Source: Nautilus pompilius
Lineage: Eukaryota > Mollusca > Cephalopoda > Nautilida > Nautilidae
Assembly: GCA_018389105.1 (NCBI GenBank)
Contig: JACATO010001057.1
Coordinates: 124,001 to 188,000 of the forward strand
Direction of reading: 5' to 3'
DNA length: 64,000 nucleotides
This document shows positions 1-63,376 of the stretch, piece by piece (position 1 is the first letter of the stretch; every line of letters starts with the position of its first letter). The notes under the pieces are model-generated. The model had not been told where the DNA came from. It made no database searches and saw only the letters and a program-made list of their open reading frames with translations. The position numbers were made by a program, and so were the translations under genes.

Positions 1-761
1 TCTCGCCATCGTCGATGACTTATTTGAGTTTCCTGCTCTATGGGTTTTTTTTTCTTTCGAAGAACCGATGCTCTCGTTGAGCAGATGACCGCCCATCCTG
101 CTGCTGCGCTGTTTTCGTGGCCATTGTTCCGACTCACTTCTGGAATTAAAAGTAACGGATCCATTCCTGCTCCAGACAAGGAGCGGGGCAAAACGATTTG
201 CGGTCAGTGCTCGATAGCAGATATCAGATGACTGTTCCACTTCTGGCCGACTCCGGCCAGTCCCCTGACAGGGACGGGCGGTACCTCTGCCGTAATGAAG
301 ATGCATCTCAAAAACATGTCAAACAGTAATGTAAGAGGGCGTCTGCTGATCGACGTACCACGATAATGTCAGGTGAAAAGCGGGTCCCGGAGGAGCCCGG
401 TACGAGGACCATCTCTTGCCAAATCTCCAGCCACTGCCAAAGGTTAACTTTACTGTAGCGCTACTTTCACTTTTAGATACGGCGAGTGACAGGGCCCGCT
501 GATAATTCTGTCTCCTCGTGCACTCTAGACAGCGCATCGGAGATCCACTGATAACCGAAGCATTTTAAACTCATCAAAAACTCATATAAATCTTTAGCTT
601 TCAATGCAGAACAAATCACCAACATTGAATACTTGATAGGTATCGTTCTGCTAGGCGGCCTCCGCGTATGGTTTTCTTGAAATACGATGAGCTTTTCCCC
701 AAGTGAGCGTCTGCTGACATTACTCACACTCTGGTTCTTCATTACGATACCGTGGCATCAT
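1..761. other. No gene recognised
   Basis: Moderately GC-rich single-copy-looking DNA. The open frames here are short and in competing phases; no domain or splice pattern supports them. Confidence 0.5.
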
Positions 762-1012
762 GCTTAGTAATAGTACGGCTACATTCTTGGTAATAGTACG
801 GCTACATTCTTGGTAATAGTACGGCTACATGCTTAGTAATAGTACGGCTACATTCTTAGTAATAGTACGGCTACATTCTTGGTAATAGTACGGCTACATT
901 CTTGGTAATAGTACGGCTACATTCTTGGTAATAGTACGGCTACATTCTGGTAATAGTACGGCTACATTCTTGGTAATAGTACAGCTACATTGTTTGTTAT
1001 AGTACGGTCTCA
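762..1012. repeat. 23-bp minisatellite, about 11 copies
   Basis: The core TAGTACGGCTACATTCTTGG recurs at 771, 794, 817, 840, 863, 886, 909, 932, 954 (22-bp spacing once), 977 and 1000. Copies are nearly identical except for the last two and scattered TGCTTAG variants. Confidence 0.95.
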
Positions 1013-1639
1013 TTCCCCCCCTTTTTTTGTTGTCTGTTTGCAGAGATCCGTAAAAATCGCAGACAATTTACAACCGGACTCGCAAAACAATTTGCATTGG
1101 TAAATGTATTTCTTCAACACCCCAACTTTCGGATTCTATGATTTACACCGTCTCAGTTGGTTCGCTGGCTTGGCAGTCTGCAAGACGATAGCGCCAGCCA
1201 CCTGGCAAGTTGGGCGTACCAGAGAGAGCGCGGAGAAAACGGTCTACGTGACTCGATTCCGCAACTCTCAGTGCGAGCCAAGCCTCTGTAAATACCTTCA
1301 AATCTGACTCCGAAGGAAAATGTATATATATAAGAACTCTCTACGATAAATTACCATGTAGATACTGAAGGGTCGAAAAGGAAGGTAAAACGTTTGGATG
1401 CTTTCATCCCGCGCTTCCAGACTACAAAGGCCGAGGGCGAAAACTTTCGAAAACGGGCTGGACATCCTTGGTTGTGTGTGTTTAGCGCTACAACATGGAA
1501 CAGTATTAATTAAGTTGGTCTGAAGGACTGGAGACTTCATATAGGCCTAGAGACTCTCTGCTCGTAACTCTGACTACCCACGCTGTAGTGGCAAATCTAT
1601 TAGCTTCGTGTTGCCTATGAACGTGACCTCGTAGTGCCG

Positions 1640-1810
1640 CGGTTATATCCGCTAAAAATGCGCCATGAGAGACCCAGCACTTCCGACTTCCACAGGGCAA
1701 CTCCACGGGCTGAGGAAGAACTAGAGGAAAGCACGCCAAACCGAACCGACTCTGACCGGGAATTGAACTGAGGCCCTCAGCCCTGGCAGTCCGGTAGCCT
1801 GAAAATGGCT
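1640..1810 (-). mobile_element. Possible SINE with tRNA-like head
   Basis: The minus strand has CAGTTCAATTCCCGG (a box B-like site, about 1771-1757), then GGTTCGGTTTGGCGTGC and TTCCTCTAGTTCTTCC. This parallels the box B to CTTCC spacing of the 30.4 kb SINE. The rest differs. Confidence 0.4.
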
Positions 1811-2689
1811 AGTAGGAATCACGCGGACTTTACAAGGTTTTTAAGCCGGACGTATATGCAGAACCTTTCCAGATAATCGTCGAAATGGAAGCAAATAAAA
1901 GCTGATTAAAACTATAAAGTATTGTTTATAATTTTGTCCATGCATTTAAAACTCTAAAAGCTTTTTAAATATGAATTATATAGGTATTGATGTTCGATCT
2001 TTATAATAAGCTCTAAAATGGAACTCGTATGAATCTTCATCCAAAACCCAATTACCTGATGTAGATCGGACGACATGGAATTTGCAGTGAATTTCAGCTT
2101 TCCGAAATAATTCCCTCTCAAAGTATTTAAAGGCAACAACACAAGCTAAATATTTAACGGTTTTACCAAGAAAAGGCCGATGGATGACTTCAATGGTTTT
2201 AGTGTAGGTCTTTGATCAAGCTATACCAACTCTAGTTTCTGCTCATCAAGGGATTCTTTCATTGCTGACGTGGCCAGCACAACGTTTGGAATTGCAAATA
2301 TCTAGTGTATCTTTTAAATAAAACAACAAAAACAACTAAGTCTCCTGAAGTTGTCTTAAACACGGTCCGACTAGTGCCGACCTCCCATTCATCCATGCAG
2401 ACACCTTTTATAAATAAGAGTTAGAACAGCGGCTTTACTGTCTGCGTGTAAAATCTCGAGGCGGCGTATTAAGAACATATTGAGGTATTATCTGTTCAGA
2501 AAGAAGAGGCTTCGTGCGGTTATCAGACCAAACGTAGTGGGGTTTTAATAGCCTAGAACTGATAGACAAGATTTCACTTTACCCCGATGTTCTAATCATA
2601 TTCATGACGCACCAATGTAGCATGCGTAATGTCTGCTATTCTCTCCAGGGAGAACAGTTATATTTATATATATGTCGAACCCCGACAGC

Positions 2690-3060
2690 GCGTTAGTCGA
2701 GACGGAAGGGATAAATACAGCAGAGAAGCAGGGTTATCTCTCCCGCGCGCCGGCCAGCGGCATCTCGCGCCGCCGAAAGCCGACAGAGCGGCTCCAGAGA
2801 GCGCCCGCTCAGCAAGCTAGAAGCGCCAGCTCTCGCCGAAGCAAGCCGCGCGCGCTCGCGAGAAAGCCTCGCGCTAATGCCGAAGCTGAGCTCTCGCGCC
2901 AGCGGAGCTCCCGCCTCAAGCCGCTGAGCTCCAGCGCGCTCCTCCGAAAGAAGCTCGCGAGCTCGCTCAATGAGAGAGCCCGCCGCAAGCGGCGCGCTGA
3001 GCTAAAGAGCGAGAAAGAATCAAGAAGCGTCTGCTCTCTCAATCGATCTCCTCAGCAAAG
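2690..3060. other. CpG-rich patch with repeated GCGAGCTC-like words
   Basis: The stretch is dense in CGCG, GCGAG, GAGCTC and AGCGGC words, unlike its AT-richer surroundings. Open frames run through it on both strands, but their Arg/Ser/Ala composition is that of the repeated words, so I do not call a gene. It could be an unmethylated CpG island or a degenerate satellite. It abuts the CT-rich tract. Confidence 0.5.
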
Positions 3061-3575
3061 AAGAGTCTCAGAGATTACTATCCCTCCTCAATCCATCTCT
3101 CTCACTCCCAATCCGCTCTCTCTCTCTCCCTCCCTCCTCAATCCGCTCTCGTCCCTCTCAAATCTATCCCATCTCTCTCCCCTCCCTCCTCATATCCTCT
3201 CTCTCTCCCTCCCTCCTCAATCCTCTCTCTCTCCCTCCCTCCTCAATCCTCTCTCTCTCTCTCCCTCCTCATCCTCTCTCTCCATCTCTCTCTCCTCAAT
3301 CCTCTCTCTCTCCCTCCCTCTCAATCCTCTCTCTCTCCCTCCTCAATCCTCTCTCTCCATCTCTCTTCCTCCTCAATCCTTCTCTCTCTCCCTCCTCAAT
3401 CCTCTCTCTCCTCCCTCCTCAATCCTCTCTCTCTCCCTCCCTCCTCAATCCCTCTCTCTCTCCCTCCCTCCTCAATCCTCTCTCTCTCTCCCTCCCAATC
3501 CTCTCTCTCTCTCCCTCCTCAATCCTCTCTCTCTCCATCTCTCTCCCTCCTCAATCCTACATCTCTCACTCTCTC
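3061..3575. repeat. Polypyrimidine minisatellite (CTCTCTCCCTCCTCAATC type)
   Basis: Irregular units of about 18-24 bp combine CTCTCT, CCCTCCCTCCT and CAATC. The plus strand is almost purely pyrimidine apart from the AA of each CAATC. It has mirror-repeat character suited to triplex (H-DNA) folding. A 335-codon open frame crosses it only because the repeat lacks stops. Confidence 0.9.
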
Positions 3576-6500
3576 CACTGCGTAGTTTTATTTTCGTCTG
3601 TCTGCTATTACATCATGTCTTTTCTTCGAACAGAACAAGGGTAGGGGGGCACAGGGTCGTGTCAATACCTCGACCTTGATCGGGTGATAAAACCCGAACG
3701 GAACACCAGAGGAAAACAACACAAACTGCCCCCCCCCCCACCTTGCACGTAAGGCCCAGGTGGAGCCGGTCGTCGCGCCTGCTGCACGCGTTGACAGCGA
3801 CGAGGCACACGCGTGAACCGATTGCCTTTCTAACTGAGTGGGGCGGCCCATCACTGAAGGTGCACTACGCCTACACCTTTCCGGTTTACTTTGGTTTTGT
3901 TCACCTGACACCCCACCAGCCCACTCGCCTAAAGTTGTCATACCTTTGTCATGATATATGATAGGGTGAGGCCGGCTAGACCCCGGAAGACGGCTGAGAC
4001 GCCCAGTTAGCCAGCGAACTGCCCCTTCCAACTCGGCGCAGAAATTGATTGATCTTCGTATAAATAAACATTTAAATAGGGGGCTGACTCGTGCACGCAG
4101 TAGGCTGGCAGGAGGGAGCCCTAAAACCGTCTCGGGCTGTGGGTCTGTAGCCCACTTAACCTGTAACCCTGGCTCCAGCACGCCGGGGTTAGGGGCGGCT
4201 CTGGGACCCGGAAATTCTCTCCGTCCGGGCGGCATAATAACGAAGATAGACTACGATTGGATAGCCAATAAATCTGCTTGGCTAATGACTTTAAAAATTG
4301 GGTTTTTAAAGGGAAGTTTAGTCCTTGGCGCTAATGGTGTGAGCATAATCAGACTGTAGGTTAATACAGACTCGGGTATTATGGCCGAGATCCGGACTGC
4401 ACATTTTCCTGATTGTCTAAAGAAGCAAAACCGTACAAGGGGTAGGATTTTCCCAGAAGTCCAACAGAGAACACCTATACAGTAGTCAGTATGTGCTTGG
4501 AGGGCGGGCAATGAAATCAGTAGGGGCGCAGAACCGCCTGGTCCTTGTTCGGTCCATAGAGGTGAACGGGATTTATCAGTAGTAAGGGAGTGCACTCTTG
4601 CCGCACTCCATCTACTGCATCATCAGCCACTCATCGATCCTACCGGACAAATACTCCGTGGAATACCCGTTTCTAATGTGGTCGCGGTTTTCTTTATTTT
4701 ACCCTCGTCCCCTCCTCCCTCCACACAGGTAACGAAGTTTCTAGAAACGAAATACGTGTAGACGAGGAAGCATCAAGATGGCGACTTCTCCTTATGGCGA
4801 TTTATTTTGCTTGTGTGGGCGAGTGAGAGAACTCGACAGCGCTGACTGCTCAAAGAGAATTCTGGAACACCCCCTCATCAGGTGGCGACTTTCGTGGTGG
4901 ATGCTCTCGGTTCCCTTGCTACGAGAACGGACGAAAAGCATTCATCGCGCCTGCCCCTGCGATTTAGCTCTTCTGCTGTGGCTTCTGCCCTTGTTCTCCA
5001 GACACTAGGGGGCGCTGTTCGAATGCATCACGCACGGTCTGCATCCACCGAATTATCTGTACGCAGACTTTACTTTAACTTAAAGAGGAAAAAACCCCAA
5101 AATGTTCTGACAAGAGAAAAGAGAATAACTCAATGAGTACAGCGACACCAGAGGTCGCGCCTGGCACTATCTTGTGTATCGACACCAGGGCCGCAGGCAT
5201 AAGTAAGGATAAAGCTGGCAGTGATTAACAGAACTATCAAACATAAAATCAAAAGACAGTTTAGCAGCAAGTCCTTGGTTCCTCAGCATCTAGCTGAAAA
5301 ATTAGGGGAAAGTCGGTCGACAACCTTACAGAATGCAAACCATCCATCACGTGGCCGGCAGACGGCGTCACTGACTTGTTTCACTCACGAGATGATGGCC
5401 GAACAGACCGGCTTGTCTGGTAGGTGGTGGTCCTACTAAATGACAGTTAAAGAGAGTCGTAAATAGCATTACCGTGCCAATAATTCTTAAAGCGGTAGAT
5501 TAAAACAAATTAGATATAAATATATAACCGATGGAAAAGAAAATAGTTTTTTTAAAGAAGATATTTTAAGGGCGACTCGTTGATAGCACCTGGTGCGTGT
5601 AGTCTAACAGCTGGTGGCCGCCATGCTGTGTGTGTGTGTGAACATACCTGTGCTTTAATTAGCAGAACGCGAGTCGTCCCCGGGCTGTTTACGCTAGAAC
5701 CAAGTAAGAAAAGGGGGAAAGGGGAACAATAAAGATAAATTTTACCTTTAAAAGACTGAAATTTTATGGAGATTTTTGCAACATCAGAAGGAATTTAATG
5801 GCGATATGCGAACAATTGGACCCCAACAACTAGAGAGGAGGAGAAGAAACAATTAACGGACCGGGAACAGCCGAAAACTAATATAATCATCAGAAATAAG
5901 ACAGATTTTTTTTTCTCTTTCTTAACGAAAGTAAAGAGCAGCCTTCACCGTTTCCTTTACCGTCACGTGACTACGAGAATGACGTCACTTTGGCAGACGA
6001 GCCAACACGAGAACTGGCCGCTGACGGGTTCGCTAAGTTTGAGCCAGGGAAACCCTTGCTACTTCCGGTAGGGGTTCGAATAAGAGGGCAGGACTACTAC
6101 TCGTTTTCGAACGCCCAAGATACGGCTGGTGCGGGGTCAGCGTCTCCCTCCCTTCGATAAGGACCCGCCGGGGTCCGAGAGCGGGGTGGAGTCTGATCAA
6201 ACTAACCCCTAAAATTAAAAAAACAAAACAAACAAACACACGAAGCAAACTGGATAAAATAAACAGGAAATAAAGTGTTGGGGTTTTTAGAACCCTAATC
6301 CCCCACTTACATTTTAATAAACGAGATGCTCAGGCTGAAGTAAGAGGTGCAGCAGCCCCAGGACCGGGGCATCTCTCTCTCTCTCTCTGTATCCCGATGA
6401 GAGCTCGGAATTGTTGATAATGTAACGTTACAAGCTGAGCGTCTTTCGTGTAGCCCTTAATTGCCAGCGCCTGGCCTGCTCAGATAATCAAGAAACGTGC

Positions 6501-8059
6501 TTCCGCTGACCCCTTTTTAGGTGTCGGTGTAGAGCCGCTGGCGAACATAAATAAGCCCAAGATCCACAACACACAGAGAGAAGACCCCCACACCCCCACC
6601 CGCCAGGGCATCGTTAGTATCAGCTAGAAATAGAAAGGTCGGGACGACGACGATTCGAACGGCTTCAGACGATGTTCCTACGAACCCGCATAATTTACTG
6701 CCGTCAGATGGTACTTCAGCCCACTCCCGTCTCTCTCTATCTCTCTGGTAGCACTGCAAACTTGGGGCGGCGGGCAGGAGGAGAAATATGCCGGGGCTGG
6801 TCGTGACGAATCCTGAAGGCTGGTGTAATGTATCTACAAGTTAGAGGGGCGCCGCCAACACCAAGCCCCGATATATGTCGTGGCTTCATTGTTCCCCGAG
6901 CACTTCGTTCAGCCCCTTCTCGAGGTTTCGGTTAATATAGCACAGTCCTGTCCCCGTGTCTTTGTGTGAGGGACAAGTGGTTCCCTGATCGAACAAAACG
7001 AAACCACCTAAGACCTTGGACGCATCCAGACTTTTCGCATAACGAAATCTTCGAGAGCTCACAAGGTTAGTACCTTATTGTCGCGTACCTCTCCAGAGGA
7101 ACCGGTGTTTAATATTTATAAAGTCTTACAACCGACGCACAGTGGCGCTTCGAGGTTATATGCAAACCATATGGAAATAATGTTATCCGATTTTTCTGTT
7201 GTAATATCCTAGCAAAAAAGAAATTTAAAAAAATCAGATTAATCGTGTATCAGAACACAAAATATTAATTGTGCCATTGTTAGGTTTTTAGATAATTAGG
7301 GACCAGAGAAATTAGCCCTTCTTGCCACTGGTTTGAACAACTGTCAGCTCAGGCCGAGCTTTTGTGAAGAAATGCCAATGGCTCACACCACCACTGCTCT
7401 AGCTGGCAGATAAAGGCAGCTCATAAAAGCAACACTCTACACGAATCAAGGCCGACATCCATTACTGCTCTTATTAAAGCTGGTTATTCTCAATGAACAA
7501 GTGTGGAGGAAACTAGAATCACCAGCTGATCGCAGCGCGAGTTTTTCTCCCACGTCTGAAAATGGAGAGTTCTGGCTGGAACTTCCGCTACGCCGCCCAG
7601 CGGAGGAACTCAGCAACTCGTACGATCTGCATGCGTCTGTGAAGGCGGGAGTCCGGGCGGCCAACACCAGTCGAACACTGCCAAGGAGGTTGGGTTGGTT
7701 GGGCGAATAGCGTCTACAAACCTCTCGCTAAGACTTGGGAACAAGGAAAAAAAAGGCAATTTGACCGGGCTAAACAGCATCATGGCCACACCTCAGGGCA
7801 ATGAGGTGGGGTTCTAGCCGGACAAAAGTGTCTCGGGAAAGTTTGGTCCGCCCTACAGTTGAGCGTGATTGTGAAAGACGGTGAAGGTCAGGGGTCGTTG
7901 CTTGGCTGTCGGTTTGAAATGGTTGGATACTCACAAAGGAAGAAATGTCACAATATTCTGCAATTCCATCAGGGGGGTCGTTTGATGGGTGATGGGTTTG
8001 TACTGCAAACCGAAATAGTGATCCGGGGGCGGGCTGCGAAGTCCAGCAGGCCACGCCTT
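3576..8059. other. GC-richer DNA without recognised gene
   Basis: It holds mixed-composition sequence with several G/C-rich patches (3.75-4.25, 5.9-6.2, 6.5-6.9 kb), short homopolymer runs and a (CT)n at 6371-6388. Overlapping open frames of 60-215 codons exist on both strands, but none shows a family motif or consistent splice joins. Confidence 0.5.
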
Positions 8060-8260
8060 GCCTGAGGACCATCCATGGTCCGGCTCCCTCATCTCCAGAT
8101 CTGAACCCCAATGAACTTGTGTGGTATGTGAACTAAATGAGAGTCATAGAAGAAGGTGCATCCAATGTCAGTCAGGTGAAGGTTACTGAACAAGATACCC
8201 AGAAAGATGGATATTTTGATGAGAAGAGATTGAAATGATAACAGCATCCCAACTGATGGT
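8060..8260 (+). pseudogene. Possible Tc1-like transposase fragment
   Basis: A plus-strand frame reads PAPSSPDLNPNELVWYVN (8074-8130), close to the Tc1/mariner 'PSPDLNPIELVWD' motif, followed by about 40 codons of plausible C-terminal text. Upstream DNA (7780-8060) gives no convincing match in one frame. The motif is short, so this is a modest-confidence call. Confidence 0.45.
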
Positions 8261-10329
8261 TCATCTAATTTCTCGTGTTTTTGCCTAAATATCTCGAGGA
8301 GAAAAAAACAGTAAGTTATATCGCCCGACTTTAATGCTCCGCGCGTATTATGGATATAATATCATAAATGCCCATTAAGTTTAATATTTTACTGGTCACA
8401 AAGGAAAAACAAAAGCAAAAACATTTTCCTATTCTACAAAACGTACAAAAGATGAACAAGAAATGCAGTAAATGAGCGGGTAATATTAGGCGGTGAAGAC
8501 AAGAAACAGTTCGGAGAACAACAGGGGGGGGGGTTTAGATCGAATGCCTTTCTCTTTACGTAGACGTACCTTTCGTAGCTTCATCTTGGAGGGAGTTTCA
8601 GACGATCATCACTTTCCTAATTAACGAAACTGTCTAAACACCGTTAAGGGGTTTGTGAAGACCATTTCACGGAGTTTGACGATGGAGGAGAGATATTATT
8701 ATAATCTCCTGTCTCTAGCGGAAAACACGTGATGGGGGACATCTTAATTTGTGAATGTCCAAGAAAAACGCTTTCCCTTTTCCTCCACCCTAATCCTGGC
8801 GGTTCTCCGATTCTTGTCGCAATTCTTCCTGGCAGAGAACAGGAACACGGTGAGCTCTGAAGACGCAGAAGTGGATCATTGCCCGAAAATCCTCCTTTTG
8901 GAATTATATTTGTTGTAAATCATTGCAATCTCTGTCTTCGTGTATGCAATAAAGCTACGGTATTCGAGCACCTGATGGCTATAAATTCACGAGCTCTTTT
9001 GAGCTGACGAACAAAAGAAGAAGAAAAAAGGGGGTTAGCTTCCCTTAACATTATCCCGACGTAGCTCTTCGCTTTCTAACCCTAGCGCCAAGATGGAACT
9101 GGCTTTGAATTCTCACTTAGAAGTAAAGCAATGTCTCCAGGATTTTCTGTTTAGTCTTTGTTTGTTCTAAATCCTCTCTCTTCCTAGTGACAACTTAGAA
9201 ATGTTGATAAACATTTATCTACCTCCTCTGTCCTCTGGACCGGCTGACTGAAGACGACTGAAATCGCTTTCTCGGAGGCCTGGATAATCAGAGGGTTTAC
9301 TGAGGAGCACAGCGCTGGTCTTGGGGAGGAGGTGAGAGGTCCGAACTCCAGAGAGAACAAGGACCGTAACATTGTAATTACTCGAGTCAACAAACCACCC
9401 TGAAGTCAGAAGAAACAAAATGTTACGATTAATAAGCTAGAAGATGCTCGTCCAAGAAAGAGGTGTGAAAGGACAGAAAAGATACTGTAAAGGGAAAGCT
9501 TTTAAACAGTTTGCCCAAAAAGATGGAAGCCGCTATTAATCACCGCCTCATAGGAAGAAATAGACTTCACAGCAGAGTAACCAATCATCAATCAGAGGAA
9601 TATATAAAACTACTAAAGTCAGCATAACAAATGTGTTAAGAAAAGTCCTAAAGTTTTTTGGATAAACATTTATAGAATGATGACAGCAAAAATTCCCATC
9701 TCTCTTTATCGATTGGCATAATCAGGGTCTGGGAGGTTGATGAGAAGATGTCAACTGGAATTGGTAGACGGAAAATATTGCTATTAGTAGGGAAACTGTT
9801 GAGATGAAATTACCATTCTTTCAGTAGGACAGTTAGTTATCGCAAGCATAGTTTTCCCCTGGTGTCAGAAATAGACCGACCACATTTGTTGACTCAGGCC
9901 AATGTTATTAATATATTCTTCTAGCGATATTTTCTCTAGATCGCCGCCTTGCTTTTTTTTAAAGTGTAGTGGTGACGTCAGAACTCGAGCGAATGCTTCT
10001 TGAAGGAGAATTATGGCATCCAGGGTGTCTGAAAAAGTGTGGATTCTTTGAAATGCGCCCACGCCCAGCCGAAGTTAATTTTGAAGATGTCGTACTTTTG
10101 AAATGCGCCCACGGTAGCGTAACTGTGTCGCTGCTCAGCCTTGGCATCCTCTATGCATCGTTAAAAGGTGAAAGCCATTTCAGTTATGGAATACAGACAG
10201 AACGATAGTCCTCTAGTGCTATATATGGGCAACTGTGCGTCCACCTCTTCTATTTATTTAGTTGACATACATACACTCCTTAAATAATCACGCCTCGACG
10301 AGAAGTTGGATTTTTTTCCCCACCTGTTT
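8261..10329. other. No gene recognised; one short direct repeat
   Basis: TTTGAAATGCGCCCACG occurs twice 50 bp apart (10048 and 10098). AATAAA lies at 8949. No coding signal. Confidence 0.5.
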
Positions 10330-11432
10330 CCCCGACTTACGTGTGAACAGGTAAGGGCCCCGACTGACGTGTGTACAGGTAAGGGCCCCGACTTACGTGT
10401 GAACAGGTAACGGCCCGACTTACGTGTGAACAGGTAAGGGCCCCGACTGACGTGTGAACAGATAAGGGCCCCGACTTACGTGTGAACAGGTAAGGGCCCC
10501 GACTGACGTGTGAACAGGTAAGGGCCCCGACTGACGTGTGAACAGGTAAGGGCCCCGACTGACGTGTGAACAGGTAAGGGCCCCGACTTACGTGTGAACA
10601 AGTAACGGCCCCGACTTACGTGTGAACAGGTAACGGCCCCGACTTACGTGTGAACAGGTAACGGCCCCGACTTACGTGTGAACAGGTAAGGGCCCCGACT
10701 TACGTGTGAACAGGTAACGGCCCCGACTTACGTGTGAACAGATAAGGGCCCCGACTTACGTGTGAACAGATAAGGGCCCCGACTGACGTGTGAACAGATA
10801 AGGGCCCCGACTGACGTGTGAACAGGTAAGGGCCCCGACTTACGTGTGAACAGGTAAGGGCCCCGACTGACGTGTGAACAGGTAAGGGCCCCGACTGACG
10901 TGTGAACAGATAAGGGCCCCGACTTACGTGTGAACAGGTAAGGGCCCCGACTGACGTGTGAACAGGTAAGGGCCCCGACTGACGTGTGAACAGGTAAGGG
11001 CCCCGACTGACGTGTGAACAGGTAAGGGCCCCGACTTACGTGTGAACAGGTAAGGGCCCCGACTGACGTGTGAACAGGTAAGGGCCCCGACTGACGTGTG
11101 AACAGATAAGGGCCCCGACTTACGTGTGAACAGGTAAGGGCCCCGACTTACGTGTGAACAGGTAAGGGCCCCGACTTACGTGTGAACAGGTAAGGGCCCC
11201 GACTTACGTGTGAACAGGTAAGGGCCCCGACTGACGTGTGAACAGGTAAGGGCCCCGACTGACGTGTGAACAGATAAGGGCCCCGACTTACGTGTGAACA
11301 GGTAAGGGCCCCGACTTACGTGTGAACAGGTAAGGGCCCCGACTGACGTGTGAACAGGTAAGGGCCCCGACTTACGTGTGAACAGGTAACGGCCCCGACT
11401 TACGTGTGAACAGATAAGGGCCCCGACTGACG
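10330..11432. repeat. 28-bp minisatellite, about 39 copies
   Basis: Each unit joins CCCCGACTTACGTGTGAA to CAGGTAAGGG. Variants alternate TTACG/TGACG, AGGTAAG/AGATAAG and AAGGG/AACGG. One unit lacks a C near 10414. The array is 1103 bp with very little decay, so it has been homogenised recently. Confidence 0.97.
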
Positions 11433-12082
11433 GGTTTTCAGGCCTGTTTACTCGAAGCTCAGCTCCGGCTTGCGCAATCGTTTCCAGAAAGGAAATGCTT
11501 TAAATAAGAGGCCAGGGATGGATGGAATCCTTGAGGATCGGCACACACACACACGTGAACAAAAATGTTAATCTGGGGGAAGTAATTATAGTTGTAACAA
11601 AACGTAAACCCGACGAGACCAACCTTTCCAGTCGGACGGGCCGCCGTCCCCTCCCCTTCGAGCTACGTGTTCACTGACACCTAGCGGTCGTAGTCCCAGT
11701 TACCCCCTCCCTCCCGCACCGCTACAATACGAAAATGGAGGCACGTCATTGGCTTTAAGGGATTTTCCGGTCCGTTTGTCGGTTGCATTTAGATACCCCA
11801 CCACCGCAAACCGCGCGAGTAGATTTATCTTTTAACCCTTGCGCGCCTACACGGCATACGTGACGCCGGTTCCAGAAGAGTCTCTCATTGGATGCGGAGA
11901 AATGGAGGGGTCTAGGGATCTTACGTACCCCCCGAAAGATGCGGTTTTAAAGGCACGGTCCTCATCGCTCGTTTGTTTTGTAAGCGTTGTCCTCCCGTAA
12001 GAATTACAATTTAATTATCATTCACCTGTTTAATATCCCTCCAATATTGCGCGAGTTACATTTTGTACGAAACAAGAAGTCC
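11433..12082. other. GC-rich flank with promoter-like words, no gene assigned
   Basis: CpG-rich with two ATTGG (inverted CCAAT) boxes near 11745 and 11887 and TACGTGACG near 11857. These are promoter-like but no adjacent gene is identified. It marks the shift to AT-rich DNA. Confidence 0.35.
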
Positions 12083-23005: not shown

Positions 23006-26000
23006 CTAAATAAACAAGGAAATAAATACATTTAAAAATTAAAAGCTTATTTGAAAAAAAGAACTGAAAGAATATATTTGCAAAACCGTGCTGACCTTCA
23101 AACAGTAACAGGGAAGGGCCAGTCAGCAAACATCAGAGCAACTGGCTGCTCAGTATTAATTGAAAGTGGGAGGAATGAATTATGGGAAAGTGTGTGGCTC
23201 TGGCTGTGCATAAACTTGGTTTACTGTTACATAAATAGGAAAAAATATGTATGGATAAACTCGAAATAAGAAACATTTTCTTAAAAAGGTCACTTAATAG
23301 AGAAAAAAAAATTAATTTGAGCTGGTTAATTAATACATACAAAAGCTCCAATAATTACGGATCAGTAGTCAAGGACCCAAGGGCATGCACCTTTATTAAG
23401 CAGAATATGACAGTGGATTTTAAAAAATGCACCTGCAGCAGCATAGTCAGGGTTGTTACAAATCCTTCATCCAACCGTATTAAACTGTAACAACAATTCC
23501 TTGTGTTCTATAGAAGAAACTCAAGAGAAAGCTATTCAAAGACTGAACTGAACTAAGGAAGTTTCTGAAAATAAACTGAGATTACTTCTGAAAAATCAAA
23601 CTCTAACAAATTAGAGAAAATTCAATAGATCCTTCAAACAACTAAAAAGAGAAAAAAAACTGAAAAAAAAACAACAACAAGTAGTTTAAAACAAGGTTGA
23701 TGGGGTTACTGTTTATAAGTATAGCTGTTGAGATAATTAACGATTTTTCAACTCTCAATTTTAGATTTAGAAGAAGAAAGCTAAGATGTAACCTTTCAAA
23801 TGTATGGAAGAACAATAAAATGGGTAGGGATGTGAAATTATCATCTCTGATTACTGATGTGCGTACAATAGGGCAGGTCGATGTTGACACAGGAGTGTGA
23901 GTAAGCAATCAGTAGTTGCATTTCCATGTATAATACGTTAAAATCACAAATATATGAGTTTAACTTGAATATCTTTTTGCGGATTTTGAAATAACTGTTT
24001 AATTTTACTTTTTCACTAGTGTTTTCGGTGCATGTAACCATTTTTTTTCAACTGTCCTTGTCTTGCTATGCTTTAAAAGTCAATGTTACGGACCACTGCG
24101 TGTCCAGCCCCCTATTATATATATATTATAGTTTAAGGACGGTTCTCTGTGTTTATTTTAGAAAATATACGGTGTATTGCCTTGCGCCGACGGCGGACTG
24201 GAATCTTGCTTATAGTGTCATTGCGAGGCCGTGTTTTGCATAGTAACTTACTCTGTAATAATAATTATTTTAGTGAGTGTTTCTATTATTATCATCGGAA
24301 AAAGGGGGGAGGATTATGAGTATATTACAAGCTGAAGACAAGAGTTTGTAACATCATTAATTTATATATCAGATTTTAATATTGAATTTAATTACATTTA
24401 AGGTTGTCTGAGATATTTTTGAAAAAATGCCGAAAGTGAAAACAACGCCGCTAACAAGAAAGAAAAGTGAAGAGAAATATGGCGGTGGTCCTTGTGATTT
24501 AGTGCTCACAGATCCCAGCACCTACAGACAATTGATTCAATATTATTATTATCTAGAATGTGCCGATCCCTGTGCAGATTTTTGGGCTAAAGTGCAGCAT
24601 GTTACCAGGGACTTGAAATCAATTTGGTTGTCTGTGAATCCAAGATTACCATTAATTCATGAAAAATCCATTGACAGAAAAGTTAAAGATCTCTTTGTGA
24701 CTGTGAAAGACATAAATCGCAAGCATGCTAAAGCAAATGCTAAGCGTAATCTGGATTCTAAGTTGGACAAACTCTTTGATATATCAGCCTGTTCCTGTCC
24801 TCTGGAAATTGTGCCTTGCAACGATTCTAGGATATATTGCAAAAAAGACAAATGCACAAAAGAACACATCATCTGCGTTTGTCCAGCAGCTGCAAAGGTG
24901 CCAATTGAAGAAAGAGCATATCTTCGAGATCAGCGTTCAAAAACAGGACCCAAGGGAGCATTTCAGATGTCTTCGGTGGACATATCTGCTGCCAAAAGAG
25001 ATAGGAGAGCTAAACTGAGAGAGCAACATGTCTTATCTCAGGAGGACATTGAATTAGCAGGACCTTCTACACAGCCTACAGATATCCCTGAACAATCAAA
25101 TTCTGAGGTTCGTGTTTTTTTTTTCTTTGCCTTAGTATATATGAACTAAACGATCATTACCTTGTATGCTATGTTAGTATTTCGAATCACAACTACTTCA
25201 TGCAAAAATTAATGCATTTTTTCTTGTATCTTAATCTGCTGAAGAAGTAATATTCCCTATCTAATCTTTTGTGATTCTTATATTTTCAGGGAGATGAATG
25301 GCAGCCTAACAGGAGGACTTCAGGAGACTACAACCTTCTCAAGTTTCCCAGATATGCTATGGAGCTTGTCAGAGCTGAATGTTCCTCCAGTCTTGGGGCA
25401 GCTCTTGGTAATGCCTTGCTCTATGACATCAAACACCTATTGAGGCCAGAGGTTGACATTAATCAAATCTTAATTGACAAGTGTAAGTTAGACAGGGCTA
25501 AATCAAAAGTAAGAGTAATTAGTGAAGAAGTTGAGTCAGAGACGAAGACACACCTCGTTTGCATGGGTGTAGATGGAAAGCTTGATGATAAAACCTTGAC
25601 ATATAAGGAAACAGAAGCGCAAGAAGGGGGAAATGTTCTCAAAAAGTGTGTTGCTACAGAACATCATCTCACATTCACATATGAAGATGGAAAATCTCCA
25701 GGCACCTATTTGACCCACAGAACAATACCTGTTGTAGGTGCTACTGGCGATGTTCTTGCTCAGGAAGCATTCAGTGTTCTTCAAGAATATGACAGCCTTG
25801 AGAGTATACATGCTATTCTTCTTGACAATACAGCAACAAACACTGGTTCTAAGAGTGGTTTGGTGGTAAAGCTAGAAGAAATTCTTGGGAGGAAGCTGCA
25901 CACAATTGGCTGTGCCCTTCATCAAAATGAACTTCCACTAAGAGCCCTATTTAAAAAACTGGATGGAACAACAACTGGCCCAAGAAGCTTCAATGGACCC

Positions 26001-29000
26001 CTTGGGAAAAGGTGCTTAGAAATATATTCATGGTGAACCACAAGTACAGTTTGAGCCAGTTCAAACACCAATTACTGATGAGTACATTCCAGATGAGGTA
26101 CTGAAGGATCTCAGTCATGATCAAAGGCTTCTCTATGAATATTGTAAGGGTATCGGAGTGGGAAGAGTAGATGATAGATGGGCAGCCTGGAAAATAGGTC
26201 CACTCAACCATGCACGATGGTTAACACTTGCTATACGACTTCTTTGTCTATACACACGAGACAACAGTCCAAACAAGAATCTGACAAAATTAATCCAATA
26301 CATCGTCAAGGTTTATGCTCCCTCATGGTTCAGCTTAAAGATGTCCTCTAAACTACATGATTCACCTCGCATTCTTTTCTCTACCATCAACCACTTGAAA
26401 CTGATTCAGTTTGATGATGTGAGACGCATTGTAAAACAAAATATTCAGGGGAATGCTTTCTGCCTGCTACCTGCAAACTTCCTTTACGCCATGGTGATGG
26501 TGAAAGATGATGATGACCAGATCAGAAATCTTGGACTTCACACAATTCTTACTCTCAGACGCAGGTATTGTTTGCAAAATTTGTTATTCTAGATATTTTT
26601 ATTTTCAAAATAATATATTAAGATTTGAACAGAATACTTAGGCAACGTCTGTGGAATTTTTATATTTCGAATTTTCAGAGCAAAAATAATAAGGAAATAG
26701 TTTTGATTATTAGGCCGATATTATTAATATACATTTTTTTTATTTCCAGAATGAACAGCAGCCAAGAAATGGAAAAGAAAATTCCTCCAGTGAACTGGGA
26801 CGCTGACACCTGGCCAGAGCTTATTGACCTTCCTGACGCTGGTACAATGGAGCCACCAACTACACAACACTTTTCTGATGAGGAAATCCAGACCTTCATC
26901 AACAAGAGCACAAAGCCGGATATTCCAAACCTACCATGTCATTCTCAGAGCGTTGAAAGGAGTGTAAAGTTAGTGACAGAAGCTTCTCATTCAGTGTATG
27001 GGTTTGAGGCCCGACACAGATCTATCCTTACGAAACTGCTGAGCAGGAAAATGCGTCCAGTGTTTATGTCAAAAGGACATTATTCTCAGTCATATGATCA
27101 TTTATATTCCTAGTTTTATTGGGTCATTATGGAAATATATTGTTCTCTTTTCCAAATGTTATGTAACTTATGATAAAAAATATAGAATATGAAATAAACT
27201 TGAAACACAATTAAACTTTAATCGCAAATCCGCAAGCGGAACATTAACCTAAAAGCCTAATTTTTTTTTTATTGTGTACTACTTGAATAGATGCAACTAC
27301 TGTATACTTACTCATATTACGATTTTTAAAAAAGTTGAAAATCGACCTGCCCTAGCGTACAAACATGACGGGTATTTAAATGAAAATTATGAGTCCAACA
27401 TACGAAACAGTTATCTGCCGCTTTGACATTTTACTGTTGATGAATTATGCCAGCAAAAAACAAAACAAAGAAAAATAAGCTGAATCATGTATCGAATCAA
27501 ATTATTAATTTCTAAGTTCTTTTTTTTCAAGCTACCCTTCAAGAGAAGATCTCTTGGGCTTCCTGTTCAGTAACTTTTCAAAATGCCTATCACCTTATAG
27601 CTGACTGTGACAATGGCCAAACTTCTCCAATTTCATTTTTCTATCCAGTTCATCCAGGCACAATTTCAGCAGGGTTCAGGAAGGGGAGATTAGCGAAATC
27701 ACAGCTATAAGTCCTTGTGATTCCCCCTCTGGTCAGGTATGTTCAGCGAGCCTAGGGTCGGTCACAGTGTGCTTCACATCATTATCTTGTTTAAAAGTTT
27801 ACACAGATCAAACAATGCCCAAGTGAAATTACATGACACTGAGGAATATTGTGATATTTATAGTGAGAATTCCATATATCTTCTGTGAAGTCATCAGCTA
27901 ATTCTCAAACTTTCATGTTTCCAACTCTCTCTTTCTTACATTTCTTCTAATATACTATACCCACTCAAAACCAAATAACTTAAACCACTTCTTGTCCTGG
28001 ATGTTAAGTCCAGACAGGTCACTTAGCCAATCAATCTAATCTCTCTTAATCATTTTGCTGCTGTTTTCTCAATGTATACTATATAATAGTTGTTGTTTTC
28101 TACATCATTTTACAGCAAGTTCAGCAGGCCTGTTTGGCCTACTGCAGTGAATCAGTTTACCATCTTCTTCTGGTGGTAGATGTAGAGATATTAACTGTTG
28201 CAGAACAATTGTGGCTACATGTGAAGAAAAGATTTGTTCTAGTCTATTAAATCAGCAACTTATTTTCTTGTTCTGTCATTTTTCTCTCTCTACCTTAGCC
28301 CTTTATATGATTTCATTCTATGATTGTTCATGCACTTTTTTGTATGGAATTATAATTTTAGCTGCCATTTCAATCTGCCAAACAGAGCAACATCAGCCAC
28401 CAGTAAAGAGGTCCATTAACATCTATACAAAAGCTCAGTGTGAGCCAACATTTCTCCACAGTAGTAGTAAATGAAAACACTATGCTTTCAGTACCAGCTA
28501 AGTCTAACAATCATAGAAATAACTTGCTCGATGATTCACAGGTGTGTAATTATGCAAAAAGATAATGTCAGAATTAATAGCTTATGTCCTGATAAATGGT
28601 TAAATTGTGGAGAGTGGGGGATAATATATTTTCATATTTTCATTAACAGTGAAGTGTTGAAAAAGCAGATCACTTATTTTTTGATATGATGGGTGGATAA
28701 TTTGGAACATCAGTGTGTCCCATTTACCCACTTTCCAACAGTTTAGCAGGAATCACTGAGCTGGAGGGGGGGGGTTTCGGTTTAACAGAAATTACAATTT
28801 CCTATGGAGATGAAGAGGAAAGTTTGGGGGGAGTATGTAGCTGTGCCTTTGAACTCATACATTTCCAGTTTTGATTTAAAAAGCTGAAAGTAAGAAAAAC
28901 AACAAATGTAACATTTTTAGAAATGAAATCTGTTAATGAGTGGAATAAATTACCGGCCAATAACTGGTGAACTAAACTTTTCCTGTGATTCCTGAATTTG

Positions 29001-32000: not shown

Positions 32001-35000
32001 ATCCTTGTATTCATTGTTACATTATATATGAACCTTTCGTGCTTTTGCTGCTGCAAATGAATCAATTAAACTATCAAAATTTAAGGTATTGAGTACGTCT
32101 TTTTCAATACTTAATATTGCCAAGTTACTCAGTCGTTCTGGAGTCAGTGAAGTTCTCAACTATGTCACAGTTAATTTCAGCTTGCCGAAAGACCTCTCAC
32201 ATCTAGCAATAGAAACCCCAATTGTTAACAAAATCTGCAATGCAATTCTTAAATTTGGGAAAACATCTTCACCATATGAAATTATAAATGGTAGCAAATC
32301 AGTTGCAACCTTTGGTTCAGGAAAAATGGTCTGTGTTCTTTTACTTATCAACATTTTACAGTCTTTAATTTCTCTGTACAATTCTGGTCCATCAATATCA
32401 CCTGGATAACTCTTTGCTAAGTCAGAACTTTTTTCTTGCAATTTTGCGTCTTCGAAATCTCCAGAAACAATATTTTGCACATTTAATAGGAATCCAAACC
32501 GTGAATCTAAATCTCGTAAGCGAGAAACCTTCCTGTTATTTCTGTAATCAAGCGATCAATAACATCCTTCATGATGCGACAAGTTTCCTGTTCAGCAGCC
32601 AATCCAGCATCAGCTGCATTCTCACCTTGCATTTGTTTACGAAATATTTTTCTTCTTTCAATGGTCAACCCCCATGTTTCACACTGATTCTTGCCTACTT
32701 TAAGTACTTCTTGACATGACGTTTCACGCGATTCTATCAATTTTTCTTTCAAAGAATCAAGATCACCAGCTGCTTCTCTAAAATTCATTTTTGGGCCTTG
32801 AAGACGTTTCTGCACTTAATTAATATATAAAAGATTTCTCCAAAAATGCAAAAGTACAAGAAAATCAAATGTAAGCATGCATTGCAGAATATTATGAGCA
32901 CAACATTTTGTTTCAGCCGGGTTACTATTCTCACTTAATTTCTCTAACAGTCCTAGCAATTCAGCCAGTTTTTCATGTACAACTTTTACTGCTTCTTCTC
33001 TTGCACTCCACTGTGTTTCTGATCCATGCTTGACAGAGATCTTAAGCTCCTGCTGCAGTTCGTCCCATCGAGTTGTTGAATGAGCAAAGAAATTATAAGT
33101 GGCTTCAATTATACAAAAAAGGTAATAACTGTTGTTTCCTGACTTGCATCATGAAGACATGCCAAGTTCAAACTATGGTTGTCACAGTTTATAAACACCG
33201 CTTTTGGATTTTTGTTCAGAATTCTTTGTTGAACGCCTGACAGATGCCCTGACATGACAGCAGCATTATCAGCCCGATGCAAGAGTGACCTCCCGGGTCC
33301 TTGGGGCCCCCGGTGTTGGGTGGACCGGGCCGCTTGTCGGCTCGATGAACATCTCTCAATCACGAGGAGGACTTGACAGAGAACTGGCCACTTGTCTTTA
33401 CTGGATGCAATGCCATTGAAAGAGCCTTGTTCGGAAGTCCAACTAGCTCAACAACAACAACAATCACTCAATAAAATTCCATCCACTTCTAATTTTGTGC
33501 TTATTGTTTTCTCAATATTGGCAGAGTCTTTTTCCTTTATCTGTATAAAGTCAATAAATGACTCTTTGACTTCTACTTTTCTTGTCTTAAAGTCAATGTC
33601 AACAAACCAAATCACTTGGGCCAATTGCTCACAATGGGCTAAATCAGGTGTGGAATCAAACAGAATACCATAGTATTTTTTTCTACGAATTGCTGACAAA
33701 CAATATTTTCGCACATGTGAAGCCATGAGATTTATAAGCTCATTTTGGATTTCAGGAGAAAGATAAGATGTTCAGGTTTGCTGGTTTTTAACACGCTCTA
33801 AATGCTCTTTCATTACTGGATCATACTTTGCTAATAACTGCAAAAGTGACAGGAAATTTCCAGGGTTTTCATTTGAAGTTATGCTCTCAGTATGACCACG
33901 AAATGCAAGACTCTGAGAAGCAAAATATTGTGTACAATCTAGCAACCATCGCAGTACTTCTCTCCATTTATATTTTTCTTGCTGAATTTGCCTTTGCAGC
34001 TCTTCATCAAAGCCACTTTGAAAATGAATTCAGCGCTCAGTTTCTTTCCAAGCAGCAAATGACTCACAATGAATGTCGCTATTTTCATGGGCATTTAACT
34101 TTTCATTTTTTTGTCCACTTAGAGAATCCACCCTGCTTTTTGAAAGCAGACAGACTACTGGATGTTATGCATGTAGATGAAAAAAGAAGACAACATGAGC
34201 AGTATGCTGCTTTATGTAGAGGTGAATATACCAACCAGGATCGATTAACCTCTTGTCCATTCAGAAGGCGTCGTTTTAACCAAAATGCAGTCATAGAACG
34301 CCCATCTTTGGCATCAAATGGACCCTCTTTATGTTGAAATTCATGTGTTTCAACTTTAACAATCTCGGTGCAATGTGCATGTGTTACAACTGCTGAGCCT
34401 GTTGTATCAAACTTCATAAAGCCAATATCCCTGTCTTAATATATTTATTAGGTCATCCTCTTTTAGCGTAGCAACACTATTCTTTAGATTTGTTTCTGAC
34501 AAAGTGCAATCCTCTTGTTTATTATTATTGTAGCTTTTAACAGGACAGAGAACAGTTTCTCCATTGTCTTATTTTTCAATGAAATAGCATGTTCACAATC
34601 TTGCACTTTGACCACTTTGCTGCCATCAGGGTGAACAGATGCAGGCTTACTTGTGTCATCACTTCCAGCAAGGTACGATCTCAACAATTTGCTTGATTCC
34701 ACCATCGAAGCTGCAAATTGTGCACCTCTTTTGTGTCCAAGTGCCCCACTTTCTTTTATTGACATAATGGACTAAAATAATAAATTAATAAATACTCACT
34801 ATATCCAGGCTCTTTTGCGCCACAGAGATCCAAATCCACTGTTCTGACTGACTGTTGCCAAAATGGCGAATTAGAATATAAACAGAAAGCGCGGATCTAT
34901 GAGAAGACAAGAGGATCGATAGTAACTCGGTCTCCTAATCGTAATGACTTACTAATGAGATTGTGTTTGTTTAATATTTTAAATTAGCTCCTATTCTCTA

Positions 35001-47000: not shown

Positions 47001-49339
47001 GGAGAATTTTCGTATAACTAAGGAAAAACGGTAAAAAAATAAAAGCCGTTCCATAGGTGAGAGAGAAATTTTATCTACCAAAATGTATTATGCATTTCAC
47101 AAATGACAGTAAATTGTGATTAGCCTTGATGAATTATGCCATGGATTCATATATATTATGAGACAGAATCTTATGTTGTTTCATTTGAAATATTCTGTTC
47201 TTAATCAGTTCTTCAATGTAAAATTATCCGGAGCTTTTCTCTAAGTGTTACACTGTTCTGTGACTTCCACCTTGAATCCTCACAGACAGACAGATAGCGA
47301 ATGTGTAGGGGAGCTAAGTAAGTATTATAATTGCTTGGAATAAAGAAGCCAAAGCAAGGTTTCATGCATGTTCATTCAGTTGAGCTGAATATAAACAGAC
47401 AAAAAATCCCAGTAATATATTACATATGCAAAATTTGAGGAAAGAACAAATAAAAATGAAGTGGACAGATTATGGTTTTATGATAAAAAGGTGAGAATGT
47501 GAAAAGTAAAATAAAACAAGCTATTGATAAAGTAATACCAAAAACAAAATGTTAAAAGGACCATGGGCACATGCCAGTAGGGTTAGAAAATTTAAACTGT
47601 AGTCAACAAACAAACTTGATGATGCTTATTAGAATTCTGTTGTTGTTGGAAAAAATAAAATTAAAACTATATTTAAAAGCTGATTTCTCTAGAGCTGGGT
47701 TAACCTCTCAAAAACCAGGTTGGCAGGCTTTTAAGATAAGACTTTGGTTTGCTGATAGTTCACTTTACAGCATAAGATTCTCTCATGTGAAATATAATGT
47801 TTATATATTCTAAAAGTAATCAGTTAGTGTATGAGATAGAATTAACTCAGACTCTATCTATGCAATTTTAATGATTCTGATACAAGCTTAGATGATCTGT
47901 AATCTTAAATCCTCCAAGACTAATTCATTATGATGATCATTATGACACAACCTAGAGTCTCTGAGGTCACTTAATGCATGAGAATGCAAATATTTAAAAA
48001 TGGATGTTATTTCACAGAGTTAACAACGTTCGTGAGTTTCTTCCCACATCTAAAATATATAGATTTATAGTAGGGTTTTCCGCGTACATCTGGTTGCGGT
48101 AACACCTGACAGGCTTACACCCTGGTCACTGCTCAAGAGCCACCAACCATACCTAGGTAACTATTTATTTGGTCCCCAAGGCTAATTAATGTCTTCCCCT
48201 TCTAGCTAACTGCTGGGAGATGTTCCTAGACCTCAAACATCAGGACAGGAGTTTGCCAAGAACAACAATAATGTTAATTTAAAATAAATATTATGCTATT
48301 GTCAAGAAAATTCTAGTTTAAAACTAAATAATCCTTGAATTAATAAATTAGACAAACTTTAAAAAATAGAAAAATTGACAAAAAAAAGAAAGTATAAAAA
48401 TGAAAATAATTCACAAGAATACAAAAAACCCATCACTATTTCAATGTTTCATTTATTCTGTTGAAAACGAGTTAGAGTTTTATATAAAAGGAAAGCTTTA
48501 ATGAATTTTATTTTTAGTTCCAAGTGTTATTTTTTTTTATAAATCCAGCTTTTTTGGCAGGCATAATTTCTCTAATTTACTTTAAACCTCAATACAAACT
48601 AAAGAACAAAAAAAGGAAGTTGAACTAAAGTTGATATTAAATAATCTTACCAGCCATTTGGTGTTTTCAGCAATTGCCCTGACATGTCTCATGGACATCC
48701 CACTAACCACAACAAGATAGTCAGTAAAGCTGATGTGATCAGGAACTTTTAGCACGCAAAGGTCTTTTGCTTTTTCTTCCTTAAGGACAGTCACAAGTTC
48801 TTCAATATCAAACACTCCAGATATACCTCCTGCAAACAAAAGAACATCTTCTCAAAACACAATTTCTTGTTTTGTTTTACCTTGAAATAAGCAGTCAGTT
48901 CAGTTATTCCCAGGGGATCACAGGTATAATATATATACTAGAATGTTCCATTAGTTGGGATACCTAATCCCCACCTAATAAACACAATTTAGGTGTATGG
49001 ACATATTTGAATAAAATAACGAGTGTACAGTAAACATTAGTGGAAAATTCCATTGTGAGGCATTTCGATAAAAATCCCACACTACACAGCCACCATCATC
49101 ATCCAGTTTAGTAGAGCATCAGAGTATACTCTCTCTCTCTCCCAACTTCGCCAAACACCTCTTTCAACACATATAACTGCTTTCTTTTACCTGTCAAAAG
49201 AAAAGAAAGGCATCTTAATTTGCCTATCGCTGCATTAAGCCAATGTGAATCGTACAAGCTCGGGAAATGGTCATGCCCCCAGAGGGTTCGTATTTTATTC
49301 CAACCTCACCCCAGATTACTCAAGAGGTATCATCAGAGA

Positions 49340-49370
<31 letters not shown>

Positions 49371-49384
49371 TGGAGAGAAGAGAT

Positions 49385-49417
<33 letters not shown>

Positions 49418-50969: not shown

Positions 50970-51719
50970 GCCGGGCGGCAAACGGTTAACGAAAGGAAAG
51001 GCCCTGCTAAGGAGAACGTTCTGGAGCCCCCCCCGGCTTACACGAGCCCCTACTTCGCCGTACACCAAGTCATAATGCTAGATGCTGATGTAAAGGCTTC
51101 ACCGCGTTTCCTCAGAGGACCCTAATTAAGGAACTGAGGCGATCACCTCAGCAGGGATCCATCACAGTACCACACGCGGTGGAAGGTAAAAACGTACGAA
51201 TTACGATAGTCGTAGAACGAAATATTGATCAAATTACAACTTTAATTCTAAAAAAATATTGTATTTAATGCGGTTTTTAAAAATTAAAACACGAAAATGT
51301 TATAAACTTTAAATTGTTTTTGTTGTTTTTCTTAAAGTCGAGATAACAGCATCCACTTTCCCCGCCTTCACTACAAGAGAGTTCTCGGAGAAAGGGAGTT
51401 ATTATTATTTTGCCGAGGAAACCGACGTTGACGGGTCAATGGCTTTACATCGTCAGTCCTTCGGTTCAGCGTCAAACGGTGTACTGATGTAAATTTATTT
51501 ATTTATTTTTTTTTAATAGCTCAAATGGCTGCTTAATTCTTCAATACTCTACGCGGAAGGACTTTGGCTCTATGAGGAGGCCTGTTCCTGTTCACAAGCA
51601 AATCACCTGAATTCCTCCTGTGCTGGGGATGTTTGACGACGACGACCTTTGCTGTTTTGGTTGTTCCTCTGTTCTGAACCCTGATCCCCTCCTCCCCTCC
51701 CCCCCTCAATGCTTGCTGA
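50970..51719. promoter_or_regulatory. Shared divergent promoter interval, MALSU1/TMEM41A
   Basis: About 750 bp separate the two divergent ATGs. The MALSU1 side (50.55-51.19 kb) is rich in C, G and CpG compared with the AT-rich introns. The middle (51.24-51.35 kb) is AT-rich. The TMEM41A side has pyrimidine tracts (51680-51710) close to its ATG. No TATA box is well placed, which is usual for housekeeping bidirectional promoters. Transcription start sites cannot be fixed from sequence. Confidence 0.6.

Positions 51720-63376
<11,657 letters not shown>

Follow-up and report, generated by a model that had tools for sequence, protein, structure and literature searches.

What kind of element interrupts the last intron of MALSU1 in Nautilus pompilius, and does its transposase belong to the hAT superfamily? 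The question arises from a stretch of 64,000 nucleotides (contig JACATO010001057.1, positions 124,001 to 188,000; the window, whose own numbering is used here) in which an inserted sequence with its flanking duplication occupies positions 23861 to 27362. The best explanation, which we consider likely, is that one cut-and-paste DNA transposon, preserved almost whole, inserted into that intron in antisense, probably fairly recently. As a transposon the element is real, clearly delimited and of an ordinary kind, and its transposase is unusual. Its ends are hAT-like and, judged from its sequence, the transposase may plausibly be a hAT branch.

The limits of the element are given by four features.

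23861 to 23868, no strand: left target-site duplication GCGTACAA, perfect over 8 bp
23869 to 23882, plus strand: left terminal inverted repeat (TIR) TAGGGCAGGTCGAT, 14 of 14 positions identical to the right end
27341 to 27354, minus strand: right TIR, inverted TAGGGCAGGTCGAT, 14 of 14 positions identical to the left end
27355 to 27362, no strand: right target-site duplication GCGTACAA, perfect over 8 bp

Between the two copies of the duplication the element spans 3,486 bp (23869-27354), with termini that read TAGGGCA...TGCCCTA. The whole window was scanned, without a shuffled control, for perfect inverted repeats that measure 12 bp or more and bracket 200-12,000 bp, and a single place had such a repeat inside a perfect 8-bp duplication, namely the element. 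The initial annotation had described a hAT-like transposon, almost intact, with a perfect 8-bp duplication and 14-bp terminal repeats starting TAGGG, and the TIRs, the duplication and the uniqueness of the scan result bear out this description. Scanning the window with the 14-bp end at up to three mismatches returned three matches (both ends of the element and one site with three mismatches), where 2.41 are expected by chance. No second copy was detected in the window, in which, besides the element itself, blastn found only matches of 15-31 nt with E values of at least 0.19 and tblastn only matches with E values of at least 2.

Inside the TIRs, both ends carry a set of subterminal repeats.

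23898 to 23921, plus strand: left subterminal inverted block (TGAGTAAG ... CAGTAGTTGCAT)
23977 to 23986, plus strand: left second subterminal block TTGCGGATTT, in a register of +11 bp with the right end
27226 to 27235, minus strand: right second subterminal block, inverted TTGCGGATTT
27291 to 27314, minus strand: right subterminal inverted block

The inner block CAGTAGTTGCAT, at 23910-23921 and 27291-27302, is conserved at 12 of 12 positions within a 24-bp inverted repeat of 88% complementarity, and the inner inverted block that had been noticed earlier is part of a longer subterminal pattern. Counted from the left tip, TGAGTAAG, CAGTAGTTGCAT and TTGCGGATTT start at 30, 42 and 109 bp, and counted from the right tip at 41, 53 and 120 bp. 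The shift is 11 bp in all three cases, which would amount to about one helical turn. At this shift 72 of 135 positions were identical between the two ends (53%), compared with a mean of 31% (standard deviation 4.1%) and a next best value of 41% at the other shifts tested. As a control, the longest common word was determined in 97 pairs of 250-bp stretches of the window and measured 7-12 bp, with 12 bp, the length found in the element, reached in 2 of the 97. Since two control pairs share a word of that length, a shared word by itself counts for little, and the common register is the strong part of this result.

The interior of the element holds a gene on the plus strand.

24427 to 25107, plus strand: exon 1, 227 codons, with the Cys/His cluster C122-C152 and without a BED match
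25108 to 25289, plus strand: intron 1, 182 bp, GT-AG, phase 0
25290 to 26564, plus strand: exon 2, with candidate residues D322, D406, C435-x2-H438 and W538 and a frame break within 26018-26036
26565 to 26749, plus strand: intron 2, 185 bp, GT-AG, phase 2
26750 to 27113, plus strand: exon 3, with CHSQSVER carrying the candidate catalytic E722; stop at 27111-27113
27193 to 27198, plus strand: AATAAA polyadenylation-like signal, inside the element

The introns, the stop and the AATAAA signal all fall within the limits of the element, and the gene with two clean introns that had been proposed is confirmed, with one frame break. Apart from this break, 772 codons are open in one frame series on one strand, and the conceptual spliced protein has 773 positions including one X at the break. 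No internal stop occurred in the four coding segments, compared with 6-24 in the five other frames of each segment. The frame break adjoins short homopolymers and is possibly an assembly error; unless it is one, this copy is unable to make the full protein. A short intron at the break was rejected on reading the sequence, the candidates being shorter than 50 bp and leaving the frame unrestored.

MALSU1 is a gene of the animal mitochondrial ribosome. Two of its exon pieces, at about 46607 and 22991 on the minus strand, once joined, match human MALSU1 (5ool_u, E=7.4e-12), in agreement with the initial placement of the element in a MALSU1 intron. This intron is the last of the gene (about 23 kb), and the element lies in it on the strand opposite to MALSU1. 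The gene may extend over 22850-51077 (minus strand); inspection by eye showed another exon, RsfS-like, near 48851 and a possible first exon near 50535-51077, to which no PDB or Pfam match lends support. The perfect TIRs, the perfect duplication and the single frame break suggest that the insertion is fairly recent.

The protein has in its N-terminal part a cluster of eight cysteines and histidines, C122-x-C-x6-C-x6-C-x4-C-x3-H-x2-C-x-C152. This cluster had been reported in the initial annotation together with the motifs LDNTATNTG, CALHQNELPLR and CHSQSVER, all of which are present in the translation. Candidate catalytic and associated residues follow in the order D322, D406, C435-x2-H438, W538 and E722, with spacings of 84 (D1-D2), 29 (D2-C), 132 (D2-W) and 316 (D2-E) residues. 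The product of the three-exon gene is most likely a transposase of the DDE (RNase H-type) class that bears a C-x2-H signature, with D322/D406/E722 as its candidate triad.

The same MALSU1 intron contains the remains of a second hAT (32160-34435, minus strand), broken by stops and frame changes, which served as a control. Two of its four scanned pieces gave a Pfam match, to Dimer_Tnp_hAT (E 1.2e-4) and to DUF4371 (E 6.5e-6, under the curated cut-off of that model). Although decayed, the second hAT is therefore recognised by Pfam in pieces, whereas the protein of the element is not. It resembles the element in having a DNxAxxxGxxSG block followed by CxxH, 28 residues on by hand count; the candidate D2-to-C distance in the element is 29. 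Five short blocks of the second hAT (D1, D2, CxxH, RW and E) were scanned along the protein of the element and compared with 200 shuffled proteins. The D2 block found its best match at D406, with a score reached by 8 of the 200 shuffles, and local alignment of the D406 block with the second hAT gave a score reached by 31 of 1000 shuffles.

Several results weigh against the explanation that we prefer. The protein of the element had no match in Pfam, NCBIfam, PHROGs or PDB, the spliced whole protein having been searched against Pfam only and parts of it against the other three; a match to a well-described, named family, the outcome that the initial annotation had set against itself, did not occur. 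In the block scan, the D1 block of the second hAT fell on D406, with a score reached by 105 of 200 shuffles, and the CxxH, RW and E blocks matched off their expected places (178, 193 and 23 of 200 shuffles, respectively). None of 24 exon-by-piece comparisons with the second hAT reached the reporting bar, which allowed no more than 6 of 300 shuffles to equal the score. Two AlphaFold models made from the single sequence had a predicted local distance difference test score (pLDDT) of 36.6 (model 1, exon 2 translated across the frame break, 424 residues) and 36.8 (model 2, 161 residues); the order of strands and helices in model 2 is RNase H-like, with D322 and D406 2-4 residues after strands, and was given no weight at this pLDDT. 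Foldseek against PDB returned no match at E <= 0.001 and no transposase in the best 50 of 472. The boundaries of the element rest on one insertion. Finally, the ratio of observed to expected CpG (CpG o/e) was 0.47 in the element as against 0.17 and 0.18 in its flanks, but at 0.48 it was about the same in the decayed second hAT, so that the CpG content of the element is no sign of youth. CpG content was rejected as a clock, this control having failed and the ratio varying within the element, with 0.23 in exon 2 and 1.01 in the left non-coding part as its extremes.

PF05699, the C-terminal dimerisation model, was undetected in Pfam searches with exon 3, with the spliced C-terminal part and with the whole protein, and no Pfam match to an N-terminal BED zinc finger was found, in line with the initial annotation; a different Cys/His cluster occupies that part of the protein. 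The weak rows of the profile and PDB searches belonged to unrelated families (best E 0.061). Only the D406 block was hAT-like above shuffles, and with one of five blocks above shuffles at its expected place, the sequence evidence for homology to hATs extends to a single block. The divergent hAT branch that had been proposed at first is therefore upheld in its hAT-style ends and duplication, and not in PF05699, in a BED finger or in four of the five motif blocks. Because PF05699 and BED were undetected, we file the element as a hAT-like transposon and not as a hAT.

The failure of every family model to match, together with an N-terminal Cys/His cluster that is not a recognised BED finger, would also fit a distinct lineage of superfamily level whose likeness to hAT arose by convergence of the ends or goes back to very deep ancestry. 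The ends, the duplication, the size and the D406 block lean instead to hAT, and we judge such a lineage quite improbable. More probably the element belongs to a branch that has been poorly described, and is not wholly new. Aphids, spiders and hydra presumably have uncharacterised proteins with similar motifs, so that the lineage is probably represented in databases already.

Searches for relatives were negative within their reach. Pattern scans of viral contigs and genome contigs, which register exact motif matches only and could let distant relatives escape, found none. Neither did the search of phages with the whole spliced protein (two records, both from a single phage, at E 4) nor that of plasmids with the second part of exon 2, 184 residues (three records at E 3-8). 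Three candidate relatives were rejected as chance matches to unrelated open reading frames. The literature search with the end sequences gave no relevant title among the matches listed, and no description of the element appeared in the titles or abstract starts among the literature matches listed, Repbase and supplements being outside this search. The one literature match to the protein motifs was a chance one, its row being labelled phospholipase C gamma (PMC4447460), and the TAGGG-bearing elements of PMC2872659 are unrelated, being flanked by TTAA.

A relationship might exist with hATm, a family put forward as the fourth of the hATs in addition to Ac, Buster and Tip. It has termini TAGGGTG/CACCCTA, duplications of 8 or 9 bp and more than 74 entries in Repbase according to PMC6004678. 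On this account the element would be a hATm member whose transposase is too divergent for the Pfam model. Its terminus TAGGGCA agrees with the first five of the seven bases of TAGGGTG, and its 8-bp duplication agrees likewise; bases 6 and 7 differ, however, so that the hATm termini are not those of the element. In addition, the two hATm elements whose TIR lengths are stated there have 417 and 575 bp, against 14 bp here, and PF05699, reported there in the hATm-6 transposase, is undetected in the element. Membership in hATm appears rather unlikely to us.

The candidate CxxH raises the further possibility of P or MuDR, superfamilies with C/DxxH and duplications of about 8 bp. P elements have such duplications and also inner inverted blocks, and the ends of P and MuDR differ from the hAT-like TAGGG termini. 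The protein gave no Pfam match to the P, THAP or MULE models, among them the THAP finger and the P-type RNase H. The C/DxxH signature, common to the P superfamily (PMC9587614) and the element's candidate CxxH, extends beyond hAT to P, MuDR, Kolobok and Dada. The candidate D2 and E are 316 residues apart in the element, whereas the P transposase of Drosophila has a distance of 228 (D303/E531, PMC8230255), though Kat1, a hAT, has 518 (PMC4763223). We regard assignment to P or MuDR as highly improbable.

For the hAT-like, cut-and-paste transposon that we favour, the following course of events may be proposed. The element would have inserted into the last MALSU1 intron in antisense, duplicating the 8-bp target GCGTACAA. 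By analogy with Hermes and Kat1, the catalytic core would cleave at the TAGGG ends and leave hairpins on the flanking DNA, and the free 3' ends would be joined to target DNA with an 8-bp stagger; in Kat1 the CxxH motif is required for the hairpins (PMC4763223). The BED fingers of Hermes bind subterminal repeats (PMC10368747). Since the Cys/His cluster of the element sits N-terminally, where hATs have BED, we infer that this cluster, probably zinc-binding, reads the subterminal blocks in place of the BED finger of Hermes. Taken one step further, the element would stand for a separate C/DxxH DDE lineage of about superfamily rank, with hAT-like ends and a Cys/His module replacing BED at the subterminal repeats, which we think unlikely.

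According to PMC10368747, a BED finger is predicted for every hAT. Should the protein be a hAT transposase that lacks both BED and a dimerisation domain that can be recognised, it would contradict that statement. It would also be a natural test of handing subterminal-repeat binding to another zinc module. In animal genomes, a family that lacks a Pfam model will probably be mistaken for host genes in annotation or escape masking.

The remainder of the window shows other features. Positions 1-12000 form a block of about 12 kb with a GC content near 48% and CpG o/e of 0.88-0.92; in the 13 other 4-kb bins the ratio was 0.11-0.31 in ten and 0.45, 0.48 and 0.66 in three. Tandem arrays lie at 10330-11432 (28-bp unit, 39 copies, 95% matches) and at 52486-52958 (67-bp unit, 7 copies, 97% matches); six units of the latter match the inner block of the element with two mismatches, probably by chance. 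Low-complexity tracts with strong, opposite strand skew occur at 3081-3567 (CT-rich) and 49335-50511 (AG-rich), and no Rfam family reached its gathering score anywhere in the window.

Compared with known systems, the element resembles the hAT superfamily in several respects. YAGGG-type termini are a hallmark of hATs, and the element has such a terminus. Its 8-bp duplication, short TIRs (14 bp) and size (3,486 bp) lie within the definition of hATs as elements of 2.5-5 kb with TIRs of 10-25 bp and an 8-bp duplication (PMC3942097). Kolobok, in contrast, duplicates TTAA, 4 bp (PMC9587614), where the element has duplicated the 8-bp GCGTACAA. Introns and subterminal repeats are likewise found in hATs (Ac, Buster and Tip groups; Hermes, Kat1 and BuT2), whose order D-D-CxxH-W-E the candidate residues of the element may follow. 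The Kat1 residues are D310, D377, C402/H405, W576 and E895 (PMC4763223, in which one passage gives D328 and not D377), and the corresponding spacings are 67, 25, 199 and 518, against 84, 29, 132 and 316 in the element. The W576 mutant of Kat1 still cleaves, so that W is not a strict marker (PMC4763223). The order D, D, CxxH, W, E is common to Kat1 and to the candidate residues of the element (PMC4763223).

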